From IMG/VR virus record IMGVR_UViG_3300030943_000062, positions 1 through 40,861 of that record: a DNA stretch of 40,861 bases; one strand, written 5' to 3'. Below, one piece after another: positions 4,749 through 28,963 of the stretch. Numbering within the stretch: the first letter of the stretch is position 1; every line of letters begins with the position of its first letter. This stretch comes from a virus. The notes beneath the pieces are model-generated. The model ran no database searches. It saw only the letters and a list, made by a program, of their open reading frames with translations, and had not been told where the DNA came from. The translations under genes were made by a program, and so were the position numbers.

Positions 4749-5072
4749 ATGGCTCGAACAACACCTGAGGGTAAGTTCAAAGACCTCCTGCATAAGGAGA
4801 TCGAAGCGCTCTTCCCAGGTTGCATCATCCTTATCGGTAACTCTGCCTGCATTCAGGGCATTCCCGACTGGGTGATCTTCTATGAGAACAAGTATGCCTT
4901 CCTCGAGGTCAAGCCTTCTGCCACGGCAGATAAGCGACCGAACCAGGACTGGTGGGTCGACAAGATCGACTCCATGTCCTTCTCAAGTTTCATCTACCCC
5001 GAGAACAAAGAGGAAGTCCTGCATGATCTTCAACTCGCATTCGGAACTCATCGGGCTTCACGCGTTTCTTAG
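4749..5072 (+). CDS. VRR-NUC-type nuclease
   Basis: The 107-residue protein has the compact PD-(D/E)XK fold signature of phage VRR-NUC proteins: Glu17 in the first helix, GIPDW with Asp40, and FLEVK with Glu53 and Lys55. Stand-alone VRR-NUC domains in phages are thought to cut branched DNA and often sit beside SNF2-like helicases, as here. TTGAGGAGGTG precedes the ATG. The last 50 bases overlap the start of the next nuclease gene in another frame, indicating coupled expression. Confidence 0.85.
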   Translation: MARTTPEGKFKDLLHKEIEALFPGCIILIGNSACIQGIPDWVIFYENKYAFLEVKPSATADKRPNQDWWVDKIDSMSFSSFIYPENKEEVLHDLQLAFGTHRASRVS

Positions 5073-5604
5073 TCCCAGCAAGTACCACTGGATCAACTAC
5101 GACGATGACAAACTCGTCCAAACGTTTCTCCGTCACAAGGAAGCAGAGCGTGGCACCCGTCTTCATGACATCGCTGCGCAACTGATCCGAGAGAGAATCA
5201 AGCTCCAGGCCTCGCGCAAGACTCTGAACATGTACGTGAACGACGCCATCGGTTACAGGATGACGCCGGAACAACCCCTGGTTTACTCAGCCAACTGCTT
5301 CGGCACGACTGATGCAATCTCTTTCAGACGAAACCCCAAGTCTGGAAACAACCTGTTGCGCATCCATGATCTGAAGAACGGACTGGCGCCGACCTCGATG
5401 CATCAACTTGAGGCCTACGCGGCAATGTTCTGTCTCGAATACCACATCCCACCGGGTGAGATCGAGATTGAACTCCGGATCTACCAGAATGATGAAATCG
5501 AGGAGCTCGTACCAGAACTCGAGGACATCGTTCACATCATGGACCGCATCGTCGCGTTCGACAGGAAGATCGATCAAGTGAGGATGGAGGCGATTCGTGA
5601 CTGA
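5023..5604 (+). CDS. RecB/Cas4-like PD-(D/E)XK exonuclease
   Basis: I place the start at ATG 5023 (193 residues) because AAAGAGGAAG lies just upstream; the longer open frame from 4882 is antagonised by the overlapping VRR-NUC gene. Visible motifs are RGTRLHDIA (motif I histidine), IHDLKNG with Asp116 and Lys118, and HQLEAY with the Gln128-x3-Tyr132 pair typical of RecB-family nucleases. Expected activity is metal-dependent cleavage or resection of DNA ends during replication or recombination. No four-cysteine iron-sulfur cluster of Cas4 is evident. The 3' end overlaps the polymerase-like gene by eight bases. Confidence 0.75.
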   Translation: MIFNSHSELIGLHAFLSPSKYHWINYDDDKLVQTFLRHKEAERGTRLHDIAAQLIRERIKLQASRKTLNMYVNDAIGYRMTPEQPLVYSANCFGTTDAISFRRNPKSGNNLLRIHDLKNGLAPTSMHQLEAYAAMFCLEYHIPPGEIEIELRIYQNDEIEELVPELEDIVHIMDRIVAFDRKIDQVRMEAIRD

Positions 5605-8257
5605 TGAAGTAATCAAGCACTACGGGACGCCTCGTCATTCTGGGCGCTACCCGTTCGGCTCAGGTCAAGACCCCAATCAGCGTGGAGGCGATTTCATGTC
5701 TCGCGTTGATGAGCTCAAGTCAAAAGGACATACTGATTCTCAGATTGCCGAGAAGTTGGGTGTAACAACCACAGCTCTTCGTGCAAAGCGTGCTATCGCC
5801 AAAAGCGAGAAGCGCAAGGAACAGGAGTCTGTTGCGGCAAGGCTCAGAGACAAGGGCATGGGCGCAAGCGCCATTGGAAAGCAGATGGGCCTTAACGAGT
5901 CATCTGTTCGTGCTCTCTTGAACCCCTCGGCAAAAGCGCGAAACGACGTTCTCGAGAACACAGCGTCTGCTCTTCGAAATCGAGTTAAGGAAGCAAAGTA
6001 CATCGACGTTGGTAGTGGTCAGGAACTCCACCTGGGCATCAGCAAAGAGAAGATGAACACTGCGCTTTCGATTCTCGAAGAAGAGGGCTATGTCGTACAC
6101 AAGTTCAGCGCCCAGCAACAGGGAACTGGCAAGATGACGACAAACAAGGTGTTGTGTCCTCCTGGCACGCCCTACCCTGAGATCCTGAAGAACCAGGCAC
6201 AGATTCAGGGTGTCCACGCTTACTCAGAAGACAAGGGTCATACCTTCAAGGTCATTGAAGATCCGCAGAGTGTCAGCTCACATCGAGTTGGCGTTCGATA
6301 CGGTTCTGAGGGCGGCGCAGGGAAAGACGGTCTGATCGAGTTGCGTAAGGGTGTGGCAGATGTCTCTCTCATGGGCAAACGCTACGCTCAAGTTCGAATT
6401 GCCGTGGATGACACTCATTACTTGAAGGGTATGGCTGTTTACTCAGACAAACTCCCTCTCGGTGTGGATGTCATGTTCAACACGAACAAGGAGAACACCG
6501 GCAACAAGCTCGATGCCATGAAGCCCTTGCAGAATGTTCCGGGTCATAAGAAGTACGACCCAGACAACCCGTTTGGTGCTGTTGTTCGTCAGCGGCACTA
6601 TCAGGATGAAAAGGGCAAAGACCATCTGTCGGCGATCAACATCGTCAACGAAGAAGGTGATTGGAATGAGTGGTCGAGAACGCTCTCATCACAGTTCCTG
6701 TCTAAGCAGAAGCCAGAACTCGCACAACGACAACTGGATCTCGCCTTCATCAAGAAGAAGACAGCCTTCGATGAAATCAACAGGTTGACCAACCCTGCTG
6801 TGAAGAAACGTCTTCTCGAATCCTTCGGCGACGACTGCGATTCGGCTGCTGTGCATCTCAAGGCTGCAGCCATGCCTCGACAGAGGGCTCAGGTGATCAT
6901 CCCGATCCCTGGCTTGAAAGACAACGAGATCTACGCCCCCAACTTCCGTCCTGGCGAGTTGGTGGTTCTTGTTCGGCATCCACATGGTGGAACTTTCGAG
7001 ATTCCTGAATTGGTGGTCAATAACAGCCACCCTGAAGCAAAACGAGTTCTGGGTCAAGCTCGAGACGCTGTTGGGATCAATGCGAATGTTGCTGCTCGCC
7101 TTTCTGGGGCAGATTTCGATGGTGACACGGTTTTGGTCATCCCGAACAACAATCGTGCCGCGACAAGTTCTATGCCCCTTCGGGATCTCAAGGACTTCGA
7201 CCCCATTCGTGCCTACCCTGGCTACCCTGGGATGAAGGTTCTTGATGGTAAGTCAAAGCAACGGAAGATGGGTGAGGTTTCGAATCTCATCACAGACATG
7301 ACGATTAAGGGCGCTAACACGACCGAACTCGCTCGTGCTGTAAAACATTCGATGGTTGTGATTGACGCTGAAAAGCACAAGTTGAATCACAAGCTGTCTT
7401 ACCAGCAGAACGGCATTGCTGGACTCAAAGCCAAGTACCAAGATGGTGGTGCGTCTACGCTCATCTCTAGGGCTAAGGCTGATGTGCGCCCACTAGATCG
7501 TAAGGGTCGTCCGTCCAAGGAAGGCGGTCCTGTCGATCGAGTTACGGGTGAGAAGAAGTACGTTCTTACGAATGAGTCTTACGTCGACAAGCATGGCAAC
7601 ACTGTGATGAAGAGAATCAAGTCAACACAGATGGCAGAGACTACGGATGCAAACACCCTCGTTTCTCGAAACGGCGGCACTCCTATGGAGAAGATCTATG
7701 CATCCCATGCGAACAAGTTGAAAGCTCTGGCCAACCAAACAAGGTTGGAACATCTTGCTACCCCCAACATGGTCGCTTCGCCTTCTGCCAAAAAGATGTA
7801 CGATTCTGAGGCCCGTGCCTTGAATGACAAGCTCCAGATCGCTCTCATGAATGCACCTTTTGAAAGGCGTGCACAAAGGCTCGCTGCAGAGATCGTTGCT
7901 GCAAAGAGAGCGGCTAACAAGAACATGGAAGCTGATGAGTTAAAGAAGATCAGAGGTCTTGCTCTTCTACATGCTCGAAACAAGGTCGGTGCTAAGAAGG
8001 AACGCATTGACATCACACCCCGTGAATGGGAAGCCATTCAGGCAGGTGCAATCTCCCATACCAAGCTAACTGAGATCTTGAAACATGCTGATCTAGAACA
8101 GGTCAAGCAGTATGCAACGCCTAAGACACAGCCTGCTGTCAGTGCATCCACACTGTCTAGGGCTAAGGCTATGGCTGCTAATGGGCATACACAGTCTGAG
8201 ATCAGTGATGCATTGGGCATCCCAATAGGCACACTAGATGCCGCTCTGTACAGATAG
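5597..8257 (+). CDS. Single-polypeptide RNA-polymerase-like protein (DFDGD) with HTH segments
   Basis: The 886-residue protein starts at GTG 5597. Residues 8-23 (HYGTPRHSGRYPFGSG) form a motif resembling N-terminal peptides of phage virion proteins. Two HTH-like repeats follow (about 35-65 and 75-110: KGHTDSQIAEKLGV, KGMGASAIGKQMGL). The core has FRPGELVVLVRHPH and then ARLSGADFDGDTVLVIP, with Asp506, Asp508 and Asp510 matching the metal-binding DxDGD of double-psi beta-barrel RNA polymerases, including cellular beta-prime, eukaryotic RdRp and YonO-like phage enzymes. A third HTH-like segment lies at the extreme C-terminus (GHTQSEISDALGI). It would make RNA from phage DNA. It lies just before the packaging genes, so packaging into the virion is plausible. 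The barrel motif is clear; activity and template are inferred. Confidence 0.75.
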   Translation: MTDEVIKHYGTPRHSGRYPFGSGQDPNQRGGDFMSRVDELKSKGHTDSQIAEKLGVTTTALRAKRAIAKSEKRKEQESVAARLRDKGMGASAIGKQMGLNESSVRALLNPSAKARNDVLENTASALRNRVKEAKYIDVGSGQELHLGISKEKMNTALSILEEEGYVVHKFSAQQQGTGKMTTNKVLCPPGTPYPEILKNQAQIQGVHAYSEDKGHTFKVIEDPQSVSSHRVGVRYGSEGGAGKDGLIELRKGVADVSLMGKRYAQVRIAVDDTHYLKGMAVYSDKLPLGVDVMFNTNKENTGNKLDAMKPLQNVPGHKKYDPDNPFGAVVRQRHYQDEKGKDHLSAINIVNEEGDWNEWSRTLSSQFLSKQKPELAQRQLDLAFIKKKTAFDEINRLTNPAVKKRLLESFGDDCDSAAVHLKAAAMPRQRAQVIIPIPGLKDNEIYAPNFRPGELVVLVRHPHGGTFEIPELVVNNSHPEAKRVLGQARDAVGINANVAARLSGADFDGDTVLVIPNNNRAATSSMPLRDLKDFDPIRAYPGYPGMKVLDGKSKQRKMGEVSNLITDMTIKGANTTELARAVKHSMVVIDAEKHKLNHKLSYQQNGIAGLKAKYQDGGASTLISRAKADVRPLDRKGRPSKEGGPVDRVTGEKKYVLTNESYVDKHGNTVMKRIKSTQMAETTDANTLVSRNGGTPMEKIYASHANKLKALANQTRLEHLATPNMVASPSAKKMYDSEARALNDKLQIALMNAPFERRAQRLAAEIVAAKRAANKNMEADELKKIRGLALLHARNKVGAKKERIDITPREWEAIQAGAISHTKLTEILKHADLEQVKQYATPKTQPAVSASTLSRAKAMAANGHTQSEISDALGIPIGTLDAALYR

Positions 8258-8264: not shown

Positions 8265-8498
8265 ATGGATAGCATGCTCACCACGACTGACAATCCATTC
8301 GATCCGTTCACACAATGGGATGACTGGGTTGCATTCGATGAAGGACAAGGGTACTACACATGTGCCTTCCTTGATCGAGTCACTGTCACGTCAGAAGAAT
8401 TGAGTGATGAAGACCAGGACCAGGCTATTGAAGACGCAATCGATGAGATCGTGAGAGAGAATGTTCTCGGTCTCTATCGAAAGGTGACTCGAGTCTGA
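8265..8498 (+). CDS. Small acidic protein downstream of the RNAP-like gene
   Basis: The gene encodes 77 residues from ATG 8265 (AGGAGAAGG just before); ATG 8274 is an alternative with better spacing. The sequence FDPFTQWDDWVAFDEGQGYYT is followed by an acidic helix (ELSDEDQDQAIEDAIDEI). Similar short proteins accompany polymerase-like genes in related phages as far as I recall. Its position seven bases after the polymerase-like gene suggests a partner or accessory role, but no function is known. Confidence 0.65.
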   Translation: MDSMLTTTDNPFDPFTQWDDWVAFDEGQGYYTCAFLDRVTVTSEELSDEDQDQAIEDAIDEIVRENVLGLYRKVTRV

Positions 8499-8508: not shown

Positions 8509-8540
8509 GGGGGAGGGTGTCGCAAAATGCACCCCCCCTC
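8509..8540 (+). terminator. GC-rich hairpin after the RNAP operon
   Basis: GGGGG-A-GGGTG (8509-8519) pairs with CACCC-C-CCCTC (8530-8540), with one A-C mismatch and one G-T pair, around a 10-base loop. A run of six A, not T, follows at about 8559. It probably limits read-through from the polymerase operon but is not a textbook intrinsic terminator; part of a packaging site is the alternative. Confidence 0.4.
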
Positions 8541-8582
8541 TGCATCGCCGCTGTCCCTAAAAAATCCCCGGAGGGAAATTTC

Positions 8583-9477: not shown

Positions 9478-9837
9478 ATGTCAGAAGACAACATCTTGCA
9501 AGACATCAAGCAGGTTCTCGGTATCGAAGCGTCTGACGCGTCGTACGACACAGACCTGCTCATGCACATCAGCACCGCCATATCCGTACTGACCCAACTC
9601 GGGATCGGCCCCGCGGATCTGTTGGTGGACAAGGACACGACCTGGGAGAACTTCATCGGTTCCACGAGCCGCTACATTTCTGCCAAGTCGTACATCTACC
9701 TCAAGGTGCGCATCCTGTTCGACCCCCCGACATCCGGCTTCGTCCTCGACGCCTGGAAGTCCCACGCCTCCGAACTCGAGTGGCGTCTCAACATCCTTGC
9801 TGAATCCGCTCCGAAGGAGGTGCCACTACCGTGGTAG
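9478..9837 (+). CDS. Head-tail connector (gp6-like adaptor)
   Basis: The 119-residue protein fits the gp6/YqbG family of adaptors that form a ring under the portal: helical N-terminus (ILQDIKQVLGI), YDTDLLMHISTAISVLTQLGIG, a Trp in TWENFIG, AKSYIYLKVRILFDPP, and a C-terminal helix. GAAGGAGAACC precedes the ATG. It lies before the terminase gene, earlier than in HK97, but this order occurs in related phages. It overlaps the next gene by seven bases. Confidence 0.75.
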   Translation: MSEDNILQDIKQVLGIEASDASYDTDLLMHISTAISVLTQLGIGPADLLVDKDTTWENFIGSTSRYISAKSYIYLKVRILFDPPTSGFVLDAWKSHASELEWRLNILAESAPKEVPLPW

Positions 9838-10298
9838 ACATGACACAAGCTGCAATGGACCAGATCAACTCCCTCGCGCACTTCGGTGTGATGGGGATGC
9901 ACTGGGGTCATCGAAAGAACGAGTCCAGCGGTTCCGCGCACATGCTCCTGGACCCTGCGACTGGTGAGATCTCCAAGGGGGTCTACCAGATCGGTAGCAC
10001 CAAGGATCACGTGAACGCGCGCGAGGCTGCTCTCAACCCGATGCACGGGATGACGAACAAGGATCTCGAGACGGTCATCAAGCGGATGAACCTGGAGAAG
10101 CAGTACCGGGAACTCACCGCCGAGAAGTCGAACTTCGACAAGGGCAACGCCCAGGTGAAGAAGATCCTGACCTACACGAAGACCGCACAAGAGGTCCACG
10201 CGCTCTACAACAGCCCCATGGGTAAGTCGGCCGCTGCGATCCTTGTCGGTGCGATGAGCAAGGGCAAGTACAAGCCGAGGCGCGCAGTAACGCCATAA
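9831..10298 (+). CDS. Virion-associated protein with HxGxxGxxWGxRK motif
   Basis: The gene encodes 155 residues from GTG 9831, which is ten bases after GGAGG; ATG 9840 is the alternative. Residues 17-29 (HFGVMGMHWGHRK) are a clear copy of the motif found at or near the N-termini of many Gram-positive phage head proteins. The rest is Lys/Glu-rich and helical (DLETVIKRMNLEKQYREL) with a coiled-coil look. It is probably a minor capsid or internal head protein; the exact role is unknown. Confidence 0.65.
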   Translation: MVDMTQAAMDQINSLAHFGVMGMHWGHRKNESSGSAHMLLDPATGEISKGVYQIGSTKDHVNAREAALNPMHGMTNKDLETVIKRMNLEKQYRELTAEKSNFDKGNAQVKKILTYTKTAQEVHALYNSPMGKSAAAILVGAMSKGKYKPRRAVTP

Positions 10299-10316
10299 TG
10301 GAAGGGGGTGAGCACG

Positions 10317-12071
10317 GTGCTTTCCAACACAGCAACACCGACGTACTACGGAAAGTTCCGTGCCGCCGTCATGCGCTCCGAGATCCCCGTCAGCATTGAA
10401 GTCGGCTTGGAGATGAACCGCATTGACCGGCTGATAGCTGATCCTCACTACTACTACGATGACAAAGCCATTGACGGGTTCATCGCTTATTGTGAGAACG
10501 AGCTAACACTCACTGATGGAGGTGATCTGCATCTACTCGACTCATTCAAGTTGTGGGCCGAGTCCCTGCTTTCCTGGTTCTACTTCGTCGAACGGAGCGT
10601 TTACGTTCCCGCGACCGAGGATCGGCAAGGCCACTTCGTAACGAAGAAAGTCAAGAAGCGACTCAAGAACAAGCAGTACTTGATTGTCGCTCGTGGTGGC
10701 GCAAAGTCGATGTATGCCTCGTGCATCCAGAACTACTTCTTGAACGTCAACACCGCGACGACCCACCAGATCACTACTGCTCCAACCATGAAGCAGGCAG
10801 ACGAGGTGATGTCGCCGATCAGGACGTCAGTCACGCGCGCACGAGGACCCCTCTTCAAGTTCCTAACTGAAGGCTCTCTCCAGAGCACATCGGGGTCCAG
10901 AGTCAACCGCGCTAAGTTGGCTTCCACCAAGAAGGGCGTAGAGAACTTCCTGACGGGTTCGCTCGTCGAGGTCCGCCCGATGTCGATCAACAAACTGCAG
11001 GGTCTTCGACCTTTCTGTTCCACAGTCGACGAATGGCTATCTGGCGATGTCCGTGAGGATGTCATCGGCGCTATCGAGCAAGGCGCTTCCAAGTTGGACG
11101 ACTACGTGATTGTGGCGATCAGCTCTGAGGGTACGGTCCGTAACGGCAGTGGCGACACTGTCAAAATGGAGCTAAGTATGATCCTCCGAGATGACCCCGA
11201 CGCTTTCGACAACGTCTCCATCTGGTGGTACAAACTCGACAGCGTTGCAGAAGTCAACAATCCTGAGATGTGGCCGAAGGCACAACCGAACATCGGGCAC
11301 ACCGTCTCATACGAGGTTTACCAGCGTGATGTAGAGCGTGCAGAAGCGGCCCCCGCGGCCGCCAATGACATCCTCGCAAAGCGCTTCGGTATCCCCATGG
11401 AAGGGTTCACGTTCTTCTTCACGTATGAGGAAACCGAGCCGTTCAAACCGCAAAGATCTCGGCGCTTTGATGGATTGCGTTGCGCTATGGGCGCTGACCT
11501 TTCACAGGGCGATGACTTCTGTGCGTTCACCTTCCTCTTCCCGCTCAACAACGGAACTTTCGGGATCAAGACCCGGAGTTATATCTCGTCACGTACGTGG
11601 GAGGTCCTCCCCGCGGCTATGCGAATGAAGTACGACGAGTTCATCAAGGAAGGAAGCCTCATCGTTCTGCAAGGTACCATCCTTGACATGGACGAGGTCT
11701 ACGAAGATCTTGATCGTCACATCCAAGAACGAGAGTACGATGTCTGTGCTTTCGGGTATGACCCCTACAACGCCAAGGAGTTCGTAGCCCGATGGGCGGA
11801 AGAGAACACGCCTTACGGCATCGAGAAGGTCATCCAGGGCGCTCGCACTGAGTCGGTTCCTCTCGGGGAACTGAAGCATCTCAGTGAACAACACGCTCTG
11901 ATCTTCGACGAGCAACTCATGAAGTTTGCGATGGGCAACTCCATCGTGATCGAGGACACAAACGGCAACCGGAAGCTTCTGAAGCGCCGGCAAGACGCCA
12001 AGATCGACAACGTCGCAGCCATGATGGACGCGTTCGTTGCTTACAAGCTCAACAAGGATGCATTCGAATGA
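10317..12071 (+). CDS. terL: Terminase large subunit
   Basis: The gene encodes 584 residues from GTG 10317. AAGGGGGTG lies at the right distance for this start, while the frame also allows GTG 10308. The ATPase domain has YLIVARGGAKSMYA (a Walker A variant), a TTAPTMKQADEV segment and FCSTVDEWLSGD (Walker B region). The RNase H-like nuclease domain begins near ADLSQGDDFCAFT, with acidic residues later at FGYDPYN and DNVAAMMDAFVAYK. It pumps DNA into the prohead through the portal and cuts the concatemer. Confidence 0.93.
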   Translation: MLSNTATPTYYGKFRAAVMRSEIPVSIEVGLEMNRIDRLIADPHYYYDDKAIDGFIAYCENELTLTDGGDLHLLDSFKLWAESLLSWFYFVERSVYVPATEDRQGHFVTKKVKKRLKNKQYLIVARGGAKSMYASCIQNYFLNVNTATTHQITTAPTMKQADEVMSPIRTSVTRARGPLFKFLTEGSLQSTSGSRVNRAKLASTKKGVENFLTGSLVEVRPMSINKLQGLRPFCSTVDEWLSGDVREDVIGAIEQGASKLDDYVIVAISSEGTVRNGSGDTVKMELSMILRDDPDAFDNVSIWWYKLDSVAEVNNPEMWPKAQPNIGHTVSYEVYQRDVERAEAAPAAANDILAKRFGIPMEGFTFFFTYEETEPFKPQRSRRFDGLRCAMGADLSQGDDFCAFTFLFPLNNGTFGIKTRSYISSRTWEVLPAAMRMKYDEFIKEGSLIVLQGTILDMDEVYEDLDRHIQEREYDVCAFGYDPYNAKEFVARWAEENTPYGIEKVIQGARTESVPLGELKHLSEQHALIFDEQLMKFAMGNSIVIEDTNGNRKLLKRRQDAKIDNVAAMMDAFVAYKLNKDAFE

Positions 12072-12089
12072 CAAGGAAAGGAGGTGAGT

Positions 12090-13463
12090 ATGGCTAATAC
12101 CACAATAGGCGGCAAACTTCGGCATGCATGGAACGCGTTCCGAAGCGATGAAGCAAACCCCCGTTCACGGCAAGGTCTGGGTCCGGGCTACGGACTTCGG
12201 AACGACCGCATTCGGATGCGAGTGACGAACGAACGCTCGATCATCGCAGCGATCTACAACCGTATTGGGATTGACGTGGCATCGGTATCGATGTACCATA
12301 TCCGTCTCGACGACAACGATCGCTACATCGAGACGATCAAGAGCTACCTCAACAACTGTCTGACCATCGAAGCAAACATCGACCAGGCAGCGAGTGCGTT
12401 CCGACAGGATATTGCGATGACGCTCTTTGATAAGGGTGTCTTGGCGATTGTGCCTGTCGATACGACGTTGAACCCGAACATCACAAGCGGATACGATATT
12501 CTCTCGATGCGAATCGGAGAGATCGTCGAGTGGTTCCCCCGAAAGGTCAGGGTCCGTCTGTACGACGAGAACGATGGTCAGTTCAAGGACATCATCGTTG
12601 ACAAGTCGACAGTCGCGATCATCGAGAACCCGCTATATTCCGTCATGAACGAGCGCAACTCGACCCTCCAGAGGCTCATCGCCAAACTCAACATGCTCGA
12701 CTCGGTTGACGAGCAGACCAGTTCCGGGAAGTTGGATCTCATCATCCAGCTGCCATACGTGATCAGGTCTGACACTCGTCGACAGCAGGCGAACGATCGG
12801 CGACAGGCTCTCGAGGACCAGCTGAAGGATTCCAAGTACGGCATCGGCTATGCCGACGGCACCGAAAAGATCACCCAGCTGAATCGCCCTGTAGAGAACA
12901 ACCTCCTCAAGCAGGTCGAGTACCTGACTGAGATGCTCTACGGACAGCTCGGCATCACGAAGGAAGTACTCGACGGAACCGCTGACGAAGCGACGATGTT
13001 GAACTACTACGGCCGCACGGTCGAACCCATCCTTCGTGCAATCTCGGAAGAGATGAAGCGGAAGTTCTTGACGAAGACCTCGCGCACGCAAGGCCAGTCG
13101 ATCATGTACCTTCGCGATCCGTTCAAGTTGCTGTCGGTCGCTGCTCTGTCTGAGGCTGCTGATTCGTTGTCCCGCAACGAGATCACTGCTCCTGACGAGA
13201 TTCGTCCGTACCTCGGCTTGAAGCCGCTGAACAGCGCAACGTCTGGTGTCCCTGGCAACAGGAACATGAGTGCCGGAGCGCCTGGTTCGCCGTCAACAGT
13301 TGATCCGTCAGCTGCTGATCCGAACGTCGACCCGACTGCCGATCCCACAGCGACTGATACTGCTGGGGCTTCAGACGAGGAGTCGCTGATGGCTAGCGTC
13401 TTTGCTGGTCTGAACGCAGACATCGACAACATTCTCAAGGGTGGTGGTGATGGGACAGGCTGA
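12090..13463 (+). CDS. Portal protein
   Basis: The gene encodes 457 residues; ATG 12090 follows AAAGGAGGTGAG, and the GTG at 12084 lies within that site. The protein has the portal pattern: an RNDRIRMRVTNERSIIAAIYNRI start, a clip/stem region with VEYLTEMLYGQLGITKEVLDG and EPILRAISEEMKRKFL, and a low-complexity Pro/Ala/Asp C-terminus. Twelve copies would form the DNA entry channel. It is directly after TerL, as usual, and overlaps the next gene by 14 bases. Confidence 0.88.
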   Translation: MANTTIGGKLRHAWNAFRSDEANPRSRQGLGPGYGLRNDRIRMRVTNERSIIAAIYNRIGIDVASVSMYHIRLDDNDRYIETIKSYLNNCLTIEANIDQAASAFRQDIAMTLFDKGVLAIVPVDTTLNPNITSGYDILSMRIGEIVEWFPRKVRVRLYDENDGQFKDIIVDKSTVAIIENPLYSVMNERNSTLQRLIAKLNMLDSVDEQTSSGKLDLIIQLPYVIRSDTRRQQANDRRQALEDQLKDSKYGIGYADGTEKITQLNRPVENNLLKQVEYLTEMLYGQLGITKEVLDGTADEATMLNYYGRTVEPILRAISEEMKRKFLTKTSRTQGQSIMYLRDPFKLLSVAALSEAADSLSRNEITAPDEIRPYLGLKPLNSATSGVPGNRNMSAGAPGSPSTVDPSAADPNVDPTADPTATDTAGASDEESLMASVFAGLNADIDNILKGGGDGTG

Positions 13464-13869
13464 AGAATTCCTGGCGCATTACGCCGATGAGAAGTACAAC
13501 CCGCAGAAGGCGCATGACTACTACATGCGGGTTCGAAAGCTCAAAGGCCGCAAGCCCGCACATGCGCAAGCACACACCTCTGGGGCATCACGCCTGAAGA
13601 AAGTCGAAACCTCCAAGATTGCGTCGGCCCGAAAGAAGGCGGCTCACGAGCGGAAGCAGATCCAAGACAAGCTCAAGGCTTGGCTGAACACCAAGGATCT
13701 GGCAAACCCGGCAACCGTCAACCTGAAGGTACAGGCGTTCGAAACCAAGAACCAAAAGCAGGCCGCTTCTATGGACCTCGGTAAGGTTGCGAACGATCTG
13801 AAGAACGCCGTCGCAAAAGCTGAAGCTACCTACAAGCGTGAGTTGAAGAAGCTTCGCGCCAAACGCTGA
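13450..13869 (+). CDS. Lys-rich head protein with HY...KLKGRK motif
   Basis: The gene encodes 139 residues from ATG 13450 (AAGG about eight bases upstream). Residues 10-36 (HYADEKYNPQ through KLKGRK) resemble a degenerate form of the virion N-terminal motif. The remainder is very Lys/Ala-rich and helical (KIASARKKAAHERKQIQDK), suggesting coiled coil and possible DNA contact. Sitting between portal and protease-capsid it may be a MuF-position or scaffold-like minor head protein. No ADP-ribosyltransferase or MuF core is visible. Confidence 0.6.
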   Translation: MGQAEEFLAHYADEKYNPQKAHDYYMRVRKLKGRKPAHAQAHTSGASRLKKVETSKIASARKKAAHERKQIQDKLKAWLNTKDLANPATVNLKVQAFETKNQKQAASMDLGKVANDLKNAVAKAEATYKRELKKLRAKR

Positions 13870-13884: not shown

Positions 13885-15768
13885 ATGGCAGTAACAAAGC
13901 CTGACTTCAGCGGATGGGCCACCAAGAATGACCTCGAATGCTCTGACGGCCGCACGATCCGTGCAAACGCCTTCAAGGTGAACGATGGTTTCACGGTCCC
14001 TCTGCTGTGGCAACACGGCCACAACGACCCCGAGAACGTTCTCGGACACGCCCTTCTCCAGAACCGGCCCGAAGGCGTCTACGCCTACGCATGGTTCAAC
14101 GAGACCGAACGCGGCCAGGTCGCAAAGCAGCTCGTCGCACACGGAGACATCAACATGCTCTCCATCTTCGCGAACAAGCTCATCCAGAAGGGCAAGGACG
14201 TTCTCCACGGTGCAATCCGTGAGCTCAGCCTCGTCATCTCTGGCGCGAACCCCGGCGCCTACATCGACAACATCCTCTTGCAGCACGGTGATGACTTCAC
14301 CCCTGTCGAGTCGGAGGCTGTCATCTACACCGGCTTGTTCATCGAGCACGCCGACTTCTCAGGGGAAGTCAACGTCTGGCAGCAGCCCGACTTCTCCGAC
14401 GACCCCGAAGGAGCCTCCATGGCACACGCAGAAGGGGACAAGTCGATCCAGGACATCCTGGATACCTTCAATCCCGAACAGAAGGACGTCCTTCTGTACA
14501 TGATCGAGGAGACCCTCAAGGGCGCCCCGACTGTGCAGCACTCGGACGATGACAGCGACGACGAAGACCTCGACGAGGACGACGCCGACGAGACCGACGA
14601 CACCGACGACTCCACCGACGGTGACAACATCCAGCACGCCAACCAGGAAGGAAATCCCGTGCGCAACGTCTTCATGAACCACAACCAGGACACCGCTCAG
14701 CAGAGCCAGGGTGTCACGCTCTCCCACGCCCAGATGCTCACCATCGTCGAGGACTTCAAGAAGTCCGGCTCCTTCAAGGGCGCCTTCCTCGCGCACGCCG
14801 GCGAGTTCGGCATCACCAACATGGAGGACGTCCTCTTCCCCGACGCTCGCGTCACCTCCAACGAGCCGGAGCTCATCACCCGCCGGATGGCCTGGGTCTC
14901 CAAGGTCATCGATGGCTGCGTCCACTCCCCGTTCTCGCGGGTCAAGTGCGTCGTCGCCGACATCACCGCCGAGCAGGCCCGTGCCCGTGGGTACGTCAAG
15001 GGCAAGTTCAAGAAGGAGATGCTCCTGAAGGTCCTCAAGCGGGTCACTGGCCCGAAGACCTTCTACATCAAGGCCAAGCTGGACCGCGATGACATCACCG
15101 ACATCACGGACATGGACGTCGTGGCCTGGATGAAGAAGCAGATGCGTCTGCTCTTCCTCGAGGAGACCGCACGCGCGATCCTGCTGTCCGACGGCCGGGC
15201 CATCGACGACGAGGACAAGATCGACGAGGAGCACATCCGCCCGATCATCAAGGAGAACTCGCTGTTCGCCCACCAGGTCGTCTACGACAAGGTCGCTTCT
15301 GCGGCTGCCGGCGACACCTTCGTGGACGCCATGCTGCGCGCTCGGAACGACTACAAGGGCTCCGGCGCTCCGACCTTCTTCACGACCAACGAGCAGCACG
15401 TCGCGATGCTGCTGCTCAAGGACGACAACAAGCGTCGGCTCTACAACTCGGATGCCGAGCTGTGCGCCGCGCTGAACGTCTCCGAGATCGTCGAGGTCGA
15501 GCCGATGGAGCAGATTCCGCACCTGCTCGGCGTCATCGTCAACCTGACCGACTACACCATCGGTGCCGACAAGGGCGGAGAGGTCAACTTCTTCGACGAC
15601 TTCGACATCGACTACAACCAGCTCAAGTACCTGTACGAGAGCCGGCTGTCCGGTGCCCTGACCAAGCCCAAGTCGGCCCTGGTCATCTGGGAGGTCGGCC
15701 ACGTTCCGACCGTCGAGTCCGTCGAGGACATGCTCCCGACCCCGGTTGTGCCCCCGGTCGGCGGCTGA
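13885..15768 (+). CDS. Prohead protease - acidic linker - major capsid protein fusion
   Basis: The 627-residue product joins three parts. Residues 1-150 resemble the herpesvirus-type prohead protease (WQHGHN with His44, RELSLVISGANPGAY with Ser115). Residues about 178-255 are an acidic scaffold-like linker with Asp/Glu runs. From about 259 the HK97-type capsid protein follows (MEDVLFPDAR, GPKTFYIKAK, TTNEQHVAMLLL, KSALVIWEVG). Two in-frame internal starts have good ribosome sites: ATG 14419 (GAAGGAG) and GTG 14659 (AGGAAGGAA). Shorter products of 449 and 369 residues may therefore be made, giving much more capsid than protease. Codons become strikingly C/G-ending after about 14400, as expected for an abundant protein. 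Confidence 0.85.
   Translation: MAVTKPDFSGWATKNDLECSDGRTIRANAFKVNDGFTVPLLWQHGHNDPENVLGHALLQNRPEGVYAYAWFNETERGQVAKQLVAHGDINMLSIFANKLIQKGKDVLHGAIRELSLVISGANPGAYIDNILLQHGDDFTPVESEAVIYTGLFIEHADFSGEVNVWQQPDFSDDPEGASMAHAEGDKSIQDILDTFNPEQKDVLLYMIEETLKGAPTVQHSDDDSDDEDLDEDDADETDDTDDSTDGDNIQHANQEGNPVRNVFMNHNQDTAQQSQGVTLSHAQMLTIVEDFKKSGSFKGAFLAHAGEFGITNMEDVLFPDARVTSNEPELITRRMAWVSKVIDGCVHSPFSRVKCVVADITAEQARARGYVKGKFKKEMLLKVLKRVTGPKTFYIKAKLDRDDITDITDMDVVAWMKKQMRLLFLEETARAILLSDGRAIDDEDKIDEEHIRPIIKENSLFAHQVVYDKVASAAAGDTFVDAMLRARNDYKGSGAPTFFTTNEQHVAMLLLKDDNKRRLYNSDAELCAALNVSEIVEVEPMEQIPHLLGVIVNLTDYTIGADKGGEVNFFDDFDIDYNQLKYLYESRLSGALTKPKSALVIWEVGHVPTVESVEDMLPTPVVPPVGG
14407..14421 (+). promoter_or_regulatory. 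Internal ribosome site for scaffold-capsid product
   Basis: GAAGGAG (14407-14413), five bases, then ATG 14419 in frame with the fusion ORF (codon 179). Initiation here would give a 449-residue scaffold-plus-capsid protein without the protease. Confidence 0.55.
14647..14661 (+). promoter_or_regulatory. Internal ribosome site for mature-length capsid product
   Basis: AGGAAGGAA lies just before GTG 14659, in frame (codon 259), precisely where the acidic linker ends and the capsid-like sequence begins (MRNVFMNHNQ if initiated here). Cleavage by the protease near the same point is an alternative route to the same 369-residue protein. Confidence 0.5.
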
Positions 15769-20150: not shown

Positions 20151-20525
20151 ATGATCACATTCTCGGCCAAAGGTTCCTTCAAGAACTTCGAGACGTACTT
20201 GACGAAGAATCGGAAGAGTTCCATATTCTCGATCCTCGACAAGTTGGGTCGCGCGGGCCAAAACGCGCTGGCGTCAGCCACTCCGGCGGCTACTGGATTG
20301 ACTGCCAACTCATGGACGTATGAGGTGAATGAGTCGGGGGGCGTCTACTCAATTACGTGGAGTAACTCCCACACTGTTGACGGCGTCCCCATCGCCATCC
20401 TCTTGCAGTACGGTCACGGCACGGGCACGGGTGGATACGTGGCTGGTCGAGATTACATCAACCCAGCATTGAAGCCCATATTCGACAAGATCTCTACGGA
20501 TGTATGGAAGGTGGTGACCGCATGA
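20151..20525 (+). CDS. HK97 gp10-like neck/tail completion protein
   Basis: The gene encodes 124 residues with a helical start (FKNFETYLTKNRKSSIFSILDKLGRAGQNALASATPAATGLTANSW by regions), then beta strands (YSITWSNSHTVDG, AILLQYGHGTGTGG) and YINPALKPIFDKI. The pattern of GQ.A...P..TG.....W, then Y.E.GTG.....P, is that of gp10-type proteins that join head to tail. Its place right before the tape measure is displaced from the usual neck cluster. The stop overlaps the tape-measure ATG (ATGA). Confidence 0.75.
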   Translation: MITFSAKGSFKNFETYLTKNRKSSIFSILDKLGRAGQNALASATPAATGLTANSWTYEVNESGGVYSITWSNSHTVDGVPIAILLQYGHGTGTGGYVAGRDYINPALKPIFDKISTDVWKVVTA

Positions 20526-23500
20526 GTGGAAACATCGACGAGAAAGTCGTAGTCGCCAAGTTCGACAATGCCATGTTCGAGAAGAACGTGCAGCAAACCC
20601 TCACATCCCTTGATGGCTTGAAGAAGGGGATGGACCTCAGCAAAGCGACCAAGAGCCTCGGAGATCTGGACTCTGCTGGAAAGCATTTCTCACTCGCGGG
20701 AATCGCAACAGGGGTAGACACAATCGCCCAGAAGTTCAATGCGATGAGCGTCGTCGCAGTCACCGCCCTTGCGACCATCACCAATCAGGCGGTAGTACTT
20801 GGTCAGAAGATGGCGTCCGGCTTCATGCAGCCGATGCAGGCCGGCTTCGCCGAGTACGAGAACAAGATGCAGACCGTTCAGACGATGCAGGCCAACACTG
20901 GCGCGTCGATGAAGCGCATCAACAAGACCCTCCAGCAGATGGCAGACTACGCCAACCTGACGGTCTACAGTTTCGGTGACATGGCCCAGAACATGGGTCT
21001 ATTCACTGCCGCTGGTGTAAAACTCGAGCCCGCGATGAAGGCCATCATGGGTATCGGTAACCTTGCAGCAATGTCTGGCTCGAGTAGTCAGCAGGCGGCA
21101 ACCGCGATGTACCAGCTCTCGCAGGCACTTGCGTCGGGTACGGTCCGCCTCATGGACTGGAACTCCGTGCAGAACGCTGGCATGGGTGGCAAGGTCTTCC
21201 AGAACGCTCTGGTCCGCACTGCCTCTCTGCACGACAAGACGGTCTCCGGGATGATCAAGAAGGAAGGAAGCTTCCGTGAGTCCCTCAAGAGCGGATGGCT
21301 GACCTCCAAGGTCCTGACAGACACTCTGAACCAGATGACCGGCACCATGTCCAAGAAGCAGATCGAGGCCCAGGGTTACACGAAGAAGCAGGCCAAAGCG
21401 ATCTGGGACATGGGTAACAAGGCTCAAGAAGCAGCCACGAAGGTCAAGACCTTCTCTCAGTTGCTTGAGACCATCAGTTCGAACAACGCTACCGGTTGGG
21501 CAAACTCCTGGCAGATCGTGATCGGTGATCTCAAAGAGGCGCGAGCGCTCTTCTCTGAGATGAACGACAAGGTCGGCAAGTTGATGTCTCGCTCTACCGA
21601 CTCTCGGAACGACCAGTTGCAGACGTGGAAAGACCTGGGTGGCCGTAAGGCGATCGTCGATGGTCTGCGAAACGCGTTCAACGCCCTCATGAGGGTCGTC
21701 GATCCAATCGTAAAGGCGTTCGGTGAGGTCTTCCCGCCTTCCCTGGGGAAGAATCTGTACGCCCTGTCGGTTGGGTTCCGAAACTTCACAGCGGGATTGG
21801 TGCTGAGCAAGGACCAGAGCAAGGGCGTTCATGACGCCTTCGTCGGGATCTTCTCAACCATCAAAATAGGAGTAGACATCCTCTCCGGAATTGGTCAAGT
21901 TGTCGGCAACGGCCTTGGCAAATTGTGGGATCTGCTTTCTTCCCTGGGCGGTTTCGTCACGCCCGTTGTGACCTTCTTCTCTTCGGTGACTGCTGGCGGT
22001 AATGCTGCGGCAGACGCATCGGACGGGATCTCGAAGTTCTTCTACTTCATCACTCAGATGCAGAACGGGATCTTCGAACCCATCATTGCGAAGTTGAAGG
22101 AGCTCGCTGCAGGCTTCGATGAGTTCCTGAACAAGGGCGATCTCGCAGCGGACTTCCGAGCGAAGATGGCTCCTGTCATCGCGTTCTTCGACCAGCTCCG
22201 ATCCAACGTAGTAACTGATGTGTCGACCGCTCTGAATGGTCTGCCAGGCGCTGTAAGTGGTGCTTGGAACTGGATCATCGGGGCAGTCAAGAACGTCTGG
22301 GACTTCTGCACCAAGGCCGGTTCTGCGCTGAAGGATGCGTTCTCTGGTATCGGTGGTGCTCTTACAGAGGGCATGAAACACATCGATCTGGCGACCGTCC
22401 TAAACATCATCAACACGGGTCTCTTCGCCGCCATGACGATCGGGATCATCAAGTTCGCCAAGGGCTTCAAGGGCTTCTTCAGCGGGATCTCTGATGCGAT
22501 TGAGGGGCTCACCAAGACCCTCTCCGCCATGCAGAACAACCTGAAGGCTGGCTCGATCATGGCGATCGCCGGTGCAATCCTGCTCCTCGCAGGTGCCGTA
22601 CTGGTTCTGTCTCTCGTAAAGCCTGAGAACCTTCTGGCCTCCATCGCTGCTCTGGGTGCACTCTTCGCGGAGTTGCTCGGATCGATGGCCATATTCCAGA
22701 AGATCGCTGGTGATAAGGGAATCAAGGAGATGCCGATCATCTCGGCGTCGTTGGTCATGCTTGCTGGTGCATTGCGCATCCTCGCTGGCGCGGCGCTTAT
22801 TCTCGGCGGAATGGATCAGGACAAGATGGTCCAAGGTCTGATTGCCGTGACGATCCTCCTAGGTCTGCTCGTTGCTGCCGCTGAGGCGCTCAACGGGCTT
22901 GACGCGGACTTCGTTGCGACAGCTGGATCGATGATCCTCATTGCGGGCGCACTTGCGGCACTTGCTGGTGTCGTTGCCATATTTGCGGTCATGCCTCTTC
23001 CGGCCCTTGCACAGGGTCTTGGAGCTGTGACTGCGATGCTGGCTCTGATGGTCGGCTCCGCTGTGGTCCTGTCGAAGTTCGCCAAAGAGATGGCAATGTC
23101 TGCTGTTGGAATGCTGGCTATGGCGGCTGCTCTCGGGCTGTTGGCCAATGTGGTGATTGTCCTCGGACTGTTGCCGCTTGCTATCTTGCAACAGGGGTTC
23201 ATCTCTGTCGGCATCCTGATGGCGCTACTTGTCGGCGCTGCTGTTCTGCTGTCGAAGTTCGCTCCAGACATGGTGCTCTCGGCGGTTGGTCTGATGGCCA
23301 TGGCTGCTGCTATCGGACTCATGGTCAACGCGGTAGTCATATTGGGCATGCTCCCGATGGACAAGTTGATCCAGGGGTTCATCGCAGTTGCAGCACTGAT
23401 GGCGGTTCTCGTTGGAGCAGCAATGCTCATGACGACAGCTCTCCCCGGTGCTGTAGCAATGCTGGCCGTGGCTGGTTCGCTGCTTATCCTGACGTTCGCC

Positions 23501-25294
23501 GTGATGCTGTTGGCAGCGATTCCGATGGCAAACATCGTGACTGCGTTGTTCGCCCTCATGGGGGCGATCATCATGTTCGCGTTCGCAGCAGCGATGTTGA
23601 CACCCGTTATTCCGTCAATGCTGGCTCTGGCTGGCGGTTTGGCCCTCATGGGTTTGGCTGTCCTGGCTGTCGGCGCCGGAATGATGTTGCTTGCCGTGTC
23701 TACTGCCCTGCTTGGTCCCGCTCTCCAGCTTCTGGCTGTTGGGTTGACTGCGCTTGGGCAGAACCTTGGCACGATGGGTAATGCAATGTTGGTGCTTGCA
23801 GGCCTTGGTGTTGCGCTTGGGATATTTGCCGTCGGTGCTGCATTGGCCGGCGGTGCGTTCATCATCCTGGGCATGGGTCTACTCATGGCTGCCGCAGGGC
23901 TTCTGGCTCTCGGTTTTGCTAGCATCATCGCGGTCACGGGACTTGCGAGTTTCGTGATGGGTGTTCAGCAGGTATTCCCCCTCATGGGAAATATCGCGCT
24001 GCTGGGTGCTGCACTTCTGGCATTCGGCGCTGGCGCTATCGTTGCTGGGATTGGCATGATCCTTGTTGGTACAGGTGCGATGATGATGGCCGCCGGTCTC
24101 ATGATGCTCAACGTAGCCGCCGCAGGCGGTGTCGAAAGCATCGGATTGATCGTTGGTGCATTCACCGCTCTGGGCTGGCAGATCCCCGCAATGCTCGGTG
24201 TAGGTGCGGCTTTGGTCGTGCTAGGCGCAGGCGCTCTGGCTCTCGGAGCTGGAGTTCTGTTGCTCGGCTCGGGTGTCGCTCTACTCGGAAGCGGAATGCT
24301 GTTGTTGGGTGTCGGTGCGAACCTTGCAGCAGGGGCCGTTCAGATGATCGTCGATGCGTTCGGAAAGCTTGCTCCTGTGAAGGACCAGGCAGTTGGCGTC
24401 GCCGGTTCTGTCAACACGATGTCGGGATCGTTCACAACTCTGTCTGGGGCTATTGGTGCGGCTGACATAGCCATCAGTGTCCTCCAGGCGGGCATGAACG
24501 ATATTTCGAGCAAGGTCTCGTCGACGGGGAGAAGCATTGAGAGCGCTACGGGGCTCTTCAAGAGTTTCGCCTCATCGGTGGACAGCTCGATGACGACGGC
24601 AACGACGAAGGCAGGAACGAGCGTCGACAAGTTCGTCAAGACCGTAAGTACGAAGCTCAAGGACTCGTCCAAGGACTTCAAGACGGCCGGCAAGTCTGTC
24701 GGCAAGGCAATCGACGATGGTCTGGTATCTGGGATGAACGACCACACAGGTCCTGTATATTCCAAGGCTCGAGAGATCATCCGCACTGCGATCAACGAGA
24801 TGAAGAAAGAAGCCGATAGCCATTCGCCGTCCAAGGAAACCGCCAAGATCGGTGGATGGATGAGCGACGGGCTTGGTAACGGCATGACCGACAACATCAA
24901 GGTGGTTGAACGAGCTGCAACTGGAGTCGCTGGAGGGGCCATCTCGGCCCTGAAGAAGGCTCTTGAGCAGGCATCGACACTCAGTGTCTCTGAGATGGAC
25001 ATGACTCCGACCATTCGGCCGGTGTTGGATCTGTCTGCTGTGAAGAAGGACGCAAACACGCTGTCTTCTGTTCTTGGCATGCCGTCTATCCCGGTCCGTG
25101 ACGCATATTCTGCGGCTGCGAGCATCTTGGAGAACCGTCAGGCCGCCGAACAGGCTGCTGCTGTTGCTGCTGAACCACAGGTTGTACAGCAGACTGATGT
25201 GTCTGTGACGCAGAACAACTACTCACCGAAGGCGCTCACGCCAATCGAGATCTACCGTCAGACCAACAACGTGGTCGCTAAGCTGAAGGGATAG
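20522..25294 (+). CDS. Tape measure protein
   Basis: The 1590-residue protein is the longest in the genome. It starts with helical, polar sequence, has FVGIFSTIKIGVDIL and similar helices, then a very hydrophobic Ala/Gly/Leu/Met region (about residues 660-1290) of repeated membrane-like helices, and a C-terminal domain with the SHSPSKE motif common near tape-measure ends. It sets tail length, is chaperoned into the tube and is probably ejected into the host membrane. At about 0.15 nm per residue it predicts a tail near 240 nm. I see no transglycosylase or peptidase domain. Confidence 0.92.
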   Translation: MSGNIDEKVVVAKFDNAMFEKNVQQTLTSLDGLKKGMDLSKATKSLGDLDSAGKHFSLAGIATGVDTIAQKFNAMSVVAVTALATITNQAVVLGQKMASGFMQPMQAGFAEYENKMQTVQTMQANTGASMKRINKTLQQMADYANLTVYSFGDMAQNMGLFTAAGVKLEPAMKAIMGIGNLAAMSGSSSQQAATAMYQLSQALASGTVRLMDWNSVQNAGMGGKVFQNALVRTASLHDKTVSGMIKKEGSFRESLKSGWLTSKVLTDTLNQMTGTMSKKQIEAQGYTKKQAKAIWDMGNKAQEAATKVKTFSQLLETISSNNATGWANSWQIVIGDLKEARALFSEMNDKVGKLMSRSTDSRNDQLQTWKDLGGRKAIVDGLRNAFNALMRVVDPIVKAFGEVFPPSLGKNLYALSVGFRNFTAGLVLSKDQSKGVHDAFVGIFSTIKIGVDILSGIGQVVGNGLGKLWDLLSSLGGFVTPVVTFFSSVTAGGNAAADASDGISKFFYFITQMQNGIFEPIIAKLKELAAGFDEFLNKGDLAADFRAKMAPVIAFFDQLRSNVVTDVSTALNGLPGAVSGAWNWIIGAVKNVWDFCTKAGSALKDAFSGIGGALTEGMKHIDLATVLNIINTGLFAAMTIGIIKFAKGFKGFFSGISDAIEGLTKTLSAMQNNLKAGSIMAIAGAILLLAGAVLVLSLVKPENLLASIAALGALFAELLGSMAIFQKIAGDKGIKEMPIISASLVMLAGALRILAGAALILGGMDQDKMVQGLIAVTILLGLLVAAAEALNGLDADFVATAGSMILIAGALAALAGVVAIFAVMPLPALAQGLGAVTAMLALMVGSAVVLSKFAKEMAMSAVGMLAMAAALGLLANVVIVLGLLPLAILQQGFISVGILMALLVGAAVLLSKFAPDMVLSAVGLMAMAAAIGLMVNAVVILGMLPMDKLIQGFIAVAALMAVLVGAAMLMTTALPGAVAMLAVAGSLLILTFAVMLLAAIPMANIVTALFALMGAIIMFAFAAAMLTPVIPSMLALAGGLALMGLAVLAVGAGMMLLAVSTALLGPALQLLAVGLTALGQNLGTMGNAMLVLAGLGVALGIFAVGAALAGGAFIILGMGLLMAAAGLLALGFASIIAVTGLASFVMGVQQVFPLMGNIALLGAALLAFGAGAIVAGIGMILVGTGAMMMAAGLMMLNVAAAGGVESIGLIVGAFTALGWQIPAMLGVGAALVVLGAGALALGAGVLLLGSGVALLGSGMLLLGVGANLAAGAVQMIVDAFGKLAPVKDQAVGVAGSVNTMSGSFTTLSGAIGAADIAISVLQAGMNDISSKVSSTGRSIESATGLFKSFASSVDSSMTTATTKAGTSVDKFVKTVSTKLKDSSKDFKTAGKSVGKAIDDGLVSGMNDHTGPVYSKAREIIRTAINEMKKEADSHSPSKETAKIGGWMSDGLGNGMTDNIKVVERAATGVAGGAISALKKALEQASTLSVSEMDMTPTIRPVLDLSAVKKDANTLSSVLGMPSIPVRDAYSAAASILENRQAAEQAAAVAAEPQVVQQTDVSVTQNNYSPKALTPIEIYRQTNNVVAKLKG

Positions 25295-27848: not shown

Positions 27849-28155
27849 CGTCCTCAAGTGGATCGTCGCGATCGTCCTTCCGGCGCTCGGAACGGCCTAC
27901 TACGGCCTCGCCATGCTGTGGCACTGGCCCTTTGTGACTGAGGTGAGCGGCACCATCCTGCTGATCACCGCGCTTCTCGGCACAGTCCTGGGCGTCAGTT
28001 CCGCCGGTTACAAGAAGACCGACGGCGACGGCACGATGACGATCAACTCGGCAGACCCCTACAGCGGTGTTGCCACCTTCGCCTTCAACTCCGATCCCAC
28101 TCTCAAGAACGGTCGGCACGTCCAACTGAAGGTTGTGGACGAGAGTTCGCAGTAA
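27781..28155 (+). CDS. Holin
   Basis: The gene encodes 124 residues from ATG 27781 after GAAAGGA. Two membrane helices (VLKWIVAIVLPALGTAYYGLAML and TILLITALLGTVLGVSSAGY) lie on either side of WHWPFV, followed by a hydrophilic tail. This is the small Gram-positive holin plan. It would form lesions releasing the distant endolysin encoded at 3513. Promoter P1 overlaps its 3' end. Confidence 0.78.
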   Translation: MSQVPSVSTPSTPIFLLGDGVYDVLKWIVAIVLPALGTAYYGLAMLWHWPFVTEVSGTILLITALLGTVLGVSSAGYKKTDGDGTMTINSADPYSGVATFAFNSDPTLKNGRHVQLKVVDESSQ

Positions 28156-28175
28156 AAACACGGGCTATAGTGAGA
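28147..28175 (+). promoter_or_regulatory. Phage promoter P1
   Basis: TCGCA (28147-28151), 14 bases, TATAGTGAGA (28166-28175). It overlaps the end of the holin gene and drives the 28201 gene, whose GTG lies 29 bases beyond TATAGT. Confidence 0.7.
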
Positions 28176-28200
28176 AAACCCTCTTGAAAGGAGATACCTC

Positions 28201-28619: not shown

Positions 28620-28648
28620 TCGCTCGATTTACATGGGCTATAGTGAGA
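28620..28648 (+). promoter_or_regulatory. Phage promoter P2
   Basis: TCGCT (28620-28624), 14 bases, TATAGTGAGA (28639-28648), then the common leader ending GAAAGGAACCACA before ATG 28669. Confidence 0.72.
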
Positions 28649-28668
28649 ACCCACCGAAAGGAACCACA

Positions 28669-28903: not shown

Positions 28904-28935
28904 GAGATCGGGCCTAACAAGCCCTTTCTTCTTTT
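28904..28935 (+). terminator. Intrinsic terminator T2
   Basis: GGGC (28910-28913), loop CTAACAA, GCCC (28921-28924), then TTTCTTCTTTT. The T-tract runs directly into the TCGCG of P3. Confidence 0.75.
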
Positions 28936-28963
28936 CGCGAGAAAAACGAGCCCTATAATGAGA
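28935..28963 (+). promoter_or_regulatory. Phage promoter P3
   Basis: TCGCG (28935-28939), 14 bases, TATAATGAGA (28954-28963). This copy has TATAAT, equal to the bacterial -10 consensus, instead of TATAGT. Confidence 0.72.

Follow-up and report, generated by a model that had tools for sequence, protein, structure and literature searches.

A putative virion-carried two-barrel RNA polymerase with built-in helix-turn-helix segments and a candidate promoter in a lineage of tailed phages

Results and Discussion

Identity and Distribution of the Polymerase Gene

The stretch of DNA analyzed (the window, 40,861 nucleotides of the virus record IMGVR_UViG_3300030943_000062) carries a gene of the family phrog_4291, whose product is predicted to be a single-polypeptide two-barrel RNA polymerase (RNAP). 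A catalytic core with an aspartate triad, helix-turn-helix (HTH) segments at both ends and an N-terminal tag were located within this gene, and a repeated promoter-like element was found right of the tail genes (Table 1). The protein matched the phrog_4291 profile almost completely (E = 0, 1233.6 bits, residues 3-884 on positions 9-905 of the 909 of the profile), and a near full-length homologue was present in 249 of 50,697 phage records; the features of this open reading frame (ORF) are therefore far beyond chance.

The homologues, 37-55% identical among the matches listed, came from phages of Arthrobacter, Gordonia, Streptomyces, Curtobacterium, Microbacterium, Rhodococcus and Lactococcus (1706-like), from one Faecalibacterium phage and from gut contigs. 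They were recorded as HTH DNA-binding protein, hypothetical protein or RNA-dependent RNA polymerase. Relatives were also found in bacterial genome assemblies (139, among the matches listed mostly Lachnospiraceae, Ruminococcus and other Clostridia), where they presumably represent prophages or co-binned phages. The RNAP belongs to the core genes of an entire phage lineage, and its family was already catalogued as a PHROG. Hence the original prediction, made from the sequence alone, of a distinct and little-described type did not hold as regards rarity, with about 250 sequenced phages carrying the gene. No description of the function of the family, of its tag or of the element was found in that search, in which subscription papers lay mostly outside and the 23 RNAP families of PMC10770324 were unchecked.

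Internal stops were noticed in related metagenomic records, within RNAP genes that are otherwise long (a TAG in G023, and a further case in L065) and within DNA polymerase genes (TAG in G015 and G034, TGA in G019). Sequencing error, frameshift and recoding are the alternative explanations.

Predicted Fold, Catalytic Site and HTH Segments

A model of the RNAP was obtained with AlphaFold2 from an alignment of 62 sequences, the other members being 45-57% identical to the protein of the window, and reached a predicted local distance difference test score (pLDDT) of 81. The best Foldseek matches were QDE-1 (E = 1e-9), P32 gp64 (3e-8) and P74 gp62 (9e-8). With VIA-align, Z scores of 18.6 for maize RDR2, 18.3 for QDE-1 and 13.8 for phage gp62/gp64 were obtained over about residues 223-724, and Pol II was matched with a Z score of 11.9 over residues 423-618. 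Together with the model, these Foldseek and VIA-align matches support a two-barrel RNA polymerase fold for the core. The RNA-polymerase-like protein with two double-psi barrels that had been predicted was thus borne out by the model, which matched two-barrel RNAPs over residues 223-724.

The DFDGD motif predicted as the metal-binding signature (Asp506/508/510) was found exactly at these positions. It was invariant in the 62 sequences, as were many of the residues flanking it, and was kept in the divergent orthologue of Lactococcus phage 1706. GELVVLVRHPH, which had been assigned to the same fold, formed a strand before the metal site in the model. Candidates for the conserved active-site lysines of double-psi beta-barrel B (DPBB-B) are K277 and K309, which were invariant in the same alignment, and K298, which was nearly so. 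Pfam, NCBIfam and PDB sequence profiles gave no above-threshold detection of the catalytic core. The RdRP family PF05183 gave a weak match to residues 497-599, below the cut-off (E = 0.013, 14.7 vs 23.8 bits), and the PDB sequence-profile matches were mostly to HTH-like or designed helical proteins.

The three predicted HTH segments were recovered with different strength. Pfam HTH_23 matched two stretches of the RNAP, the best of them being the C-terminal one, above the cut-off; the N-terminal pair was matched below the cut-off only, together with helices in the model. Both N-terminal units lie within the helices of residues 26-133 and the C-terminal one within those of residues 850-885. A winged helix is possible at about residues 140-190.

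N-Terminal Tag and Virion Evidence

Residues 1-28 were modeled with very low confidence and are probably disordered. They include a tag with the consensus HYGTPRxSGRYPWGSGxNPYQ, which was present family-wide. In the original prediction this N-terminus had been likened to those of phage virion proteins. BLAST alone did not sustain the likeness, since a tblastn search of phages with the 28-amino-acid tag of the RNAP returned essentially the RNAP itself; it emerged from a DNA-pattern scan and a profile comparison, which were therefore needed. The tag strings were absent from the paper texts searched.

When IMG/VR was scanned for DNA encoding GRYPWGSG, 121 tagged ORFs were obtained, of which 103 contained DFDGD and most others resembled cut-off RNAPs. 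Four tagged ORFs, located on the contigs L107 and L139, were not RNAPs. On L139 the RNAP-type tag was carried by a 376-amino-acid protein between terminase and portal, adjoining a protease start that resembles that of the window, and this protein matched the RNAP profile through the tag alone (E = 1.3e-8). On L107, a gut phage fragment, three terminase-adjacent ORFs (157-3801, minus strand) bore HYG...SGRYPWGSGK tags and two of them contained GNAT acetyltransferase domains. A further ORF of L107, the fourth there, bore a variant tag, HYNKNHDPSTGRFTWGS.

Proteins at an L139-like position near the terminase of cultured phages carried tags of the LAHYGVKGMKWGVRR type. These correspond to DUF7211 (PF23847), a 25-amino-acid unit found on one to nine head-module proteins of RNAP-lineage phages. 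Qui has nine such proteins, ReqiPepy6 has seven, located between the terminase and portal genes, and the window has one. DUF7211 was detected in all 25 RNAP-lineage records tested, with one to seven copies each, and in none of 14 control genomes. The RNAP tag and the DUF7211 tags were aligned by hhalign over 11 columns with E = 1.5e-7, sharing the core D-x-L-x-H-Y-G-V, and one RNAP relative gave a DUF7211 match below the cut-off. DUF7211-tagged arrays with varied bodies surround the terminase and portal genes of Qui (7088-16162), ReqiPepy6 (14185-19935) and Ingrid (3076-8713). Some bodies are HESAHA metallopeptidase-like (gp10 of Ingrid and of DrGrey) and some may contain membrane segments; a GYxALIDDNDAG...PMILL domain (phrog_7502) recurs in these arrays.

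A second line of evidence came from phage 1706. In its original record (GenBank EU081845) the orthologue orf75, a full-length phrog_4291 member with tag, DFDGD and the same gene position, is labelled "structural protein". The label is shared by orf7, which has two DUF7211 copies, and by orf6, 11, 12, 17, 20, 21, 62 and 71, while role-less genes are called "unknown" and predicted ones "putative". This usage, which also covers genes distant from the head module, makes it very probable that the label on orf75 stems from an analysis of virions. RefSeq later renamed orf75, and the ReqiPepy6 record copies the label ("similar to Lactococcus phage 1706_gp75, structural protein"). Virion presence of the RNAP, which had been suggested as a possibility, is thus supported by the annotation of an orthologue and by tag sharing, both with DUF7211 and with proteins adjacent to the terminase large subunit elsewhere. 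Two of the labelled genes of 1706, orf62 (1053-1331) and orf71 (5659-6012), are small, untagged and outside the head module.

Promoter-Like Element

A motif repeated in intergenic regions was first spotted in 1706 and HotFries. It corresponds to a strand-oriented element of 29 bp, TCGCA-N4-TTACA-N4-CTATAATGAGA, lying upstream of small genes; the consensus from 82 sites was TCGCA.gAwTTACA.GccCTATAATGAgAccc. With a first matrix built from 1706, HotFries and one site of the window (score threshold 12), ten genomes contained 3-12 plus-strand sites each, and 4-12 sites were counted in each of nine genomes other than the window. Minus strands had 0-2 sites, and shuffled sequence gave 0.05-0.55 per strand. 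Sites ahead of head or tail genes were limited to isolated weak or doubtful ones in the genomes scanned. No TTGACA -35 box was found at spacers of 15-19, nor any conservation upstream of TCGCA, and the pattern with wrong spacing gave no matches.

The window was then scanned with a matrix trained on other genomes, the window being left out. Eight sites were found at 28147-31372, all on the plus strand, compared with none on the minus strand and 0.000 in 50 shuffles. In most cases GAAAGGA and the start codon of a small gene follow after some 20-30 bases, these genes lying right of the tail module. A pattern scan of IMG/VR matched at least 120 stretches. Among 35 element-bearing records of at least 34 kb, 27 encoded the RNAP, one had a weak RNAP match and seven were others. 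The lineage protease-capsid gene was present in all eight of the latter (the seven and the weak-match record), and the reversed pattern in none of them. The element belongs to the RNAP lineage, because all 35 large records that bear it are members of that lineage. The phage thus carries a candidate cognate promoter that the original prediction had not seen, and this element would be the target of the promoter recognition proposed there for the HTH segments.

Table 1. Features located in the window; residue numbers refer to the RNAP.
Feature	Position	Strand	Basis or remark
Exonuclease, phrog_3953 (Cas4-type name in relatives)	4882..5604	+	Immediately upstream; 3' end overlaps RNAP start
Predicted single-polypeptide two-barrel RNA polymerase, phrog_4291	5597..8257	+	GTG start, 886 amino acids, ORF intact
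N-terminal tag HYGTPRHSGRYPFGSG, residues 8-23, proposed virion-targeting signal	5618..5665	+	Family-wide alignment, tag sharing
HTH-like segment 1, residues 40-62	5714..5782	+	HTH_3 below cut-off; helices in model
HTH-like segment 2, residues 82-107	5840..5917	+	HTH_28 E = 1.5e-4, below cut-off; helices in model
Catalytic core, residues 223-724	6263..7768	+	Structural match by QDE-1, RDR2, P23-45 gp64
GELVVLVRHPH, residues 453-463, strand preceding metal site	6953..6985	+	Translation and model
DFDGD catalytic triad D506/D508/D510	7112..7126	+	Invariant in 62 sequences
C-terminal HTH, residues 858-880	8168..8236	+	HTH_23 E = 1.5e-7, above cut-off
Small conserved gene, phrog_4303	8268..8498	+	Directly 3' of RNAP
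cos-like junction CTCTGCATCGCCGCTGT/CCCTAAAAAATCCCCGG, joined genome ends, RNAP beside right end	8538..8577	.	End comparison
DUF7211-tagged protein, tag LAHFGVMGMHWGHRK at 9867-9923	9831..10298	+	Pfam; just upstream of terminase
Terminase large subunit	10308..12071	+	
Portal protein	12084..13463	+	
Post-portal protein with FLAHYADEKYNPQKAHDYYMRVRKLKGR N-terminus	13441..13869	+	
Lineage-type fusion of head maturation protease and major capsid protein	13885..15768	+	
Tape measure protein	20504..25294		
Element 1	28147..28178	+	Upstream of ORF 28201-28497
Element 2	28620..28651	+	
Element 3	28935..28966	+	
Element 4	29127..29158	+	Upstream of ORF 29182-29412
Element 5	29484..29515	+	Upstream of ORF 29537-29650
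Element 6	29688..29719	+	Upstream of ORF 29743-29973
Element 7	30192..30223	+	Weak, 11.8 bits
Element 8	31372..31403	+	

Proposed Function and Alternatives

We favor, with moderate confidence, the reading that this two-barrel RNAP is packaged in the capsid, is injected and transcribes early genes from the compact element. As a member of the two-double-psi-barrel superfamily, the protein would synthesize RNA on DNA templates as a single chain. Its unstructured N-terminal tag (HYG...SGRYPWGSG) would load it into the procapsid alongside the DUF7211-tagged proteins of the head module, and it would enter the cell with the DNA upon infection. The HTH modules (two N-terminal, one C-terminal and possibly a winged helix) may then bind the element, so that the small-gene cluster right of the tail genes, presumably early in timing, would be transcribed before or beside the action of the host RNAP. 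Initiation on element DNA would be expected near TATAATGAGA.

Several points weigh against this proposal. Oengus encodes the RNAP, yet no convincing copy of the element was found in it (score 12, 42.7 kb scanned, intergenic regions included). The virion label belongs to orf75 of 1706 and not to the protein of the window, and we infer its experimental basis from label usage. Pfam DUF7211 gave no HMMER-level match at the N-terminus of the RNAP of the window. The co-presence of element, DUF7211 and RNAP is by itself no proof of a functional link, because a single lineage is concerned; the co-occurrence of tag, RNAP and protease-capsid fusion was set aside as functional proof on the same ground. 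The main doubt arises from the element itself, which includes TATAAT, a sigma-A -10 box, and therefore the host RNAP together with a phage factor is a possible reader.

In that case the host sigma-A RNAP would read the element with TATAAT as its -10 box, a different DNA-binding protein of the phage assisting or obstructing it, and the phage RNAP would serve elsewhere. The hexamer is a good -10-like one whose spacing to the Shine-Dalgarno sequence is plausible, and weak -35 boxes are generally known to be frequent in actinobacteria. However, the element has no -35 box at the usual spacings and a sharp 5' boundary at TCGCA. TTACA-N4-CTATA is conserved across phages of Lactococcus and of actinobacteria, the constant partner being the phage, and the RNAP is an HTH-bearing core protein of the lineage. 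Reading by the host enzyme thus appears rather unlikely, though it deserves serious consideration.

A lower probability is given to an active two-barrel RNAP that acts inside the cell as a middle or late enzyme and is no virion component, the label in 1706 reflecting an abundant contaminant and the tag having another role. There is a precedent in YonO, a single-chain two-barrel RNAP that transcribes late genes (PMC5467207), and the RNAP gene sits at the right end among genes for replication and recombination, outside the head operon. Nevertheless, the tag is common to terminase-adjacent proteins, a tagged 1706 protein is likewise labelled structural, and the element is not placed ahead of head and tail genes apart from the isolated sites mentioned above, all of which makes such an enzyme clearly unlikely.

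It is very improbable that the protein is a true RNA-dependent RNA polymerase acting on RNA instead of a promoter-dependent transcriptase, as the PHROG and RefSeq name would have it. The top structural matches (QDE-1, RDR2), the weak PF05183 match and the phrog_4291 name agree with that function. The PF05183 match is nonetheless below the cut-off, QDE-1 structures with DNA templates exist too, gp64 and gp62 share the fold and come from DNA phages, the virus is a double-stranded DNA tailed phage, and HTHs suit double-stranded DNA. Annotations such as "HTH DNA-binding" or "structural protein" might suggest a virion protein with a structural or DNA-binding role that has retained the RNAP fold but lost catalysis. 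This is scarcely credible, since DFDGD and its surroundings do not vary among 62 diverse sequences and are also kept in the divergent protein of 1706.

A broader extension of the packaged-RNAP proposal was also considered, in which the HYG tag, in both its SGRYPWGSG (RNAP) and its GMKWGxRR (DUF7211) types, is a general capsid-loading signal throughout this large lineage. As a self-contained kit for taking over the cell, each virion would carry the RNAP with its promoter together with a changing tagged cargo, to be injected with the DNA, and the cargo would comprise acetyltransferase, HExxH-like, membrane-anchored and unknown proteins. This extension is put forward tentatively, as a real possibility that falls somewhat short of being probable. 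In phage T4, capsid-targeting sequences are short N-terminal signals that place unrelated proteins in the head for injection. Such internal-protein signals offer a functional analogy to the role proposed for the tag, no sequence relation being claimed.

Comparison With Known Polymerases

Two-barrel phage RNAPs are an established kind, to which the RNAP of the window would add a variant with a tag, built-in HTHs and a candidate promoter. The crAss-like phage phi14:2 reportedly carries in its virion a two-barrel RNAP, gp66, which is delivered for early-gene transcription and is said to be larger than the RNAP of the window; the latter differs from it in its HTHs and HYG tag. Known examples comprise YonO, crAss-like gp66, gp64 and gp96 of P23-45 and those of jumbo phages (PMC5467207; PMC10770324; PMC7598289). 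P23-45 has a non-virion RNAP, gp64, and a virion RNAP fused to the tape measure, gp96 (PMC10770324). The RNAP of the window resembles these as a single-polypeptide two-barrel enzyme with DxDxD from a tailed phage, structurally matched to gp64/gp62 as given above. In P23-45 the phage promoter motifs are short and an RNAP is injected (PMC10770324), as is proposed here. In contrast to gp96, the RNAP of the window is encoded by an ORF of its own and not as part of the tape measure protein. It further differs from the P23-45 enzymes in its HTHs, its head-type tag and a different promoter-like element, and only one such enzyme was noticed in the window.

YonO of SPbeta, whose promoter sequence is undetermined in PMC5467207, is similarly a single-chain two-barrel phage RNAP of about 100 kDa with an aspartate triad. 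YonO transcribes late genes, and the RNAP of the window has a virion-type tag and a virion-labelled orthologue. Neither gp66 nor YonO was among the structural matches listed, which is no evidence of a difference. The top fold matches, QDE-1 and RDR2, are eukaryotic silencing enzymes with about 13% identity and without the phage tag. With orf75 of 1706, a member of the same family, there is no fundamental difference.

Few phage groups are known to carry a two-barrel RNAP in the virion. If the proposal is correct, a widely cultured lineage would join them, whose roughly 250 sequenced phages include those of Streptomyces, Arthrobacter, Gordonia and Lactococcus and which also has many gut-bacterial relatives. 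A candidate promoter, HTHs within the enzyme itself and a recognizable loading tag would then be available together in small genomes with laboratory hosts, opening a route to how a single-chain two-barrel RNAP finds its promoter without sigma. DUF7211 would also acquire a meaning, and an orthogonal transcription system could be gained.

Genome Position and Neighboring Genes

The junction close to the RNAP gene matched the right and left ends of relatives, the comparison covering Mudcat, HotFries, Rosa, 1706 and Untouchable; cos is also present in ReqiPepy6. The RNAP was the penultimate right-end gene in the finished genomes examined, before a small gene and about 320-540 bases from the terminus, FP_oengus being deposited in a different permutation. 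The small phrog_4303 gene that follows it in the window (MLTTTDNPFDPFTQWDDW...) was also found in 1706, Mudcat, HotFries and Oengus, and its product could be a partner of the RNAP.

The post-portal protein is perhaps a scaffold, and its relatives show YDPVKAxEYYxRTRxLKGR in the same place. Three adjacent ORFs within 16404-19229 all matched one major tail protein family, phrog_2645. At 36114-39941 a protein of 1275 amino acids (phrog_4210) is encoded, with an N-terminal DUF5906/primase-type ATPase region and DNA polymerase matches further on, and counterparts of it were found at the same place in cultured relatives.

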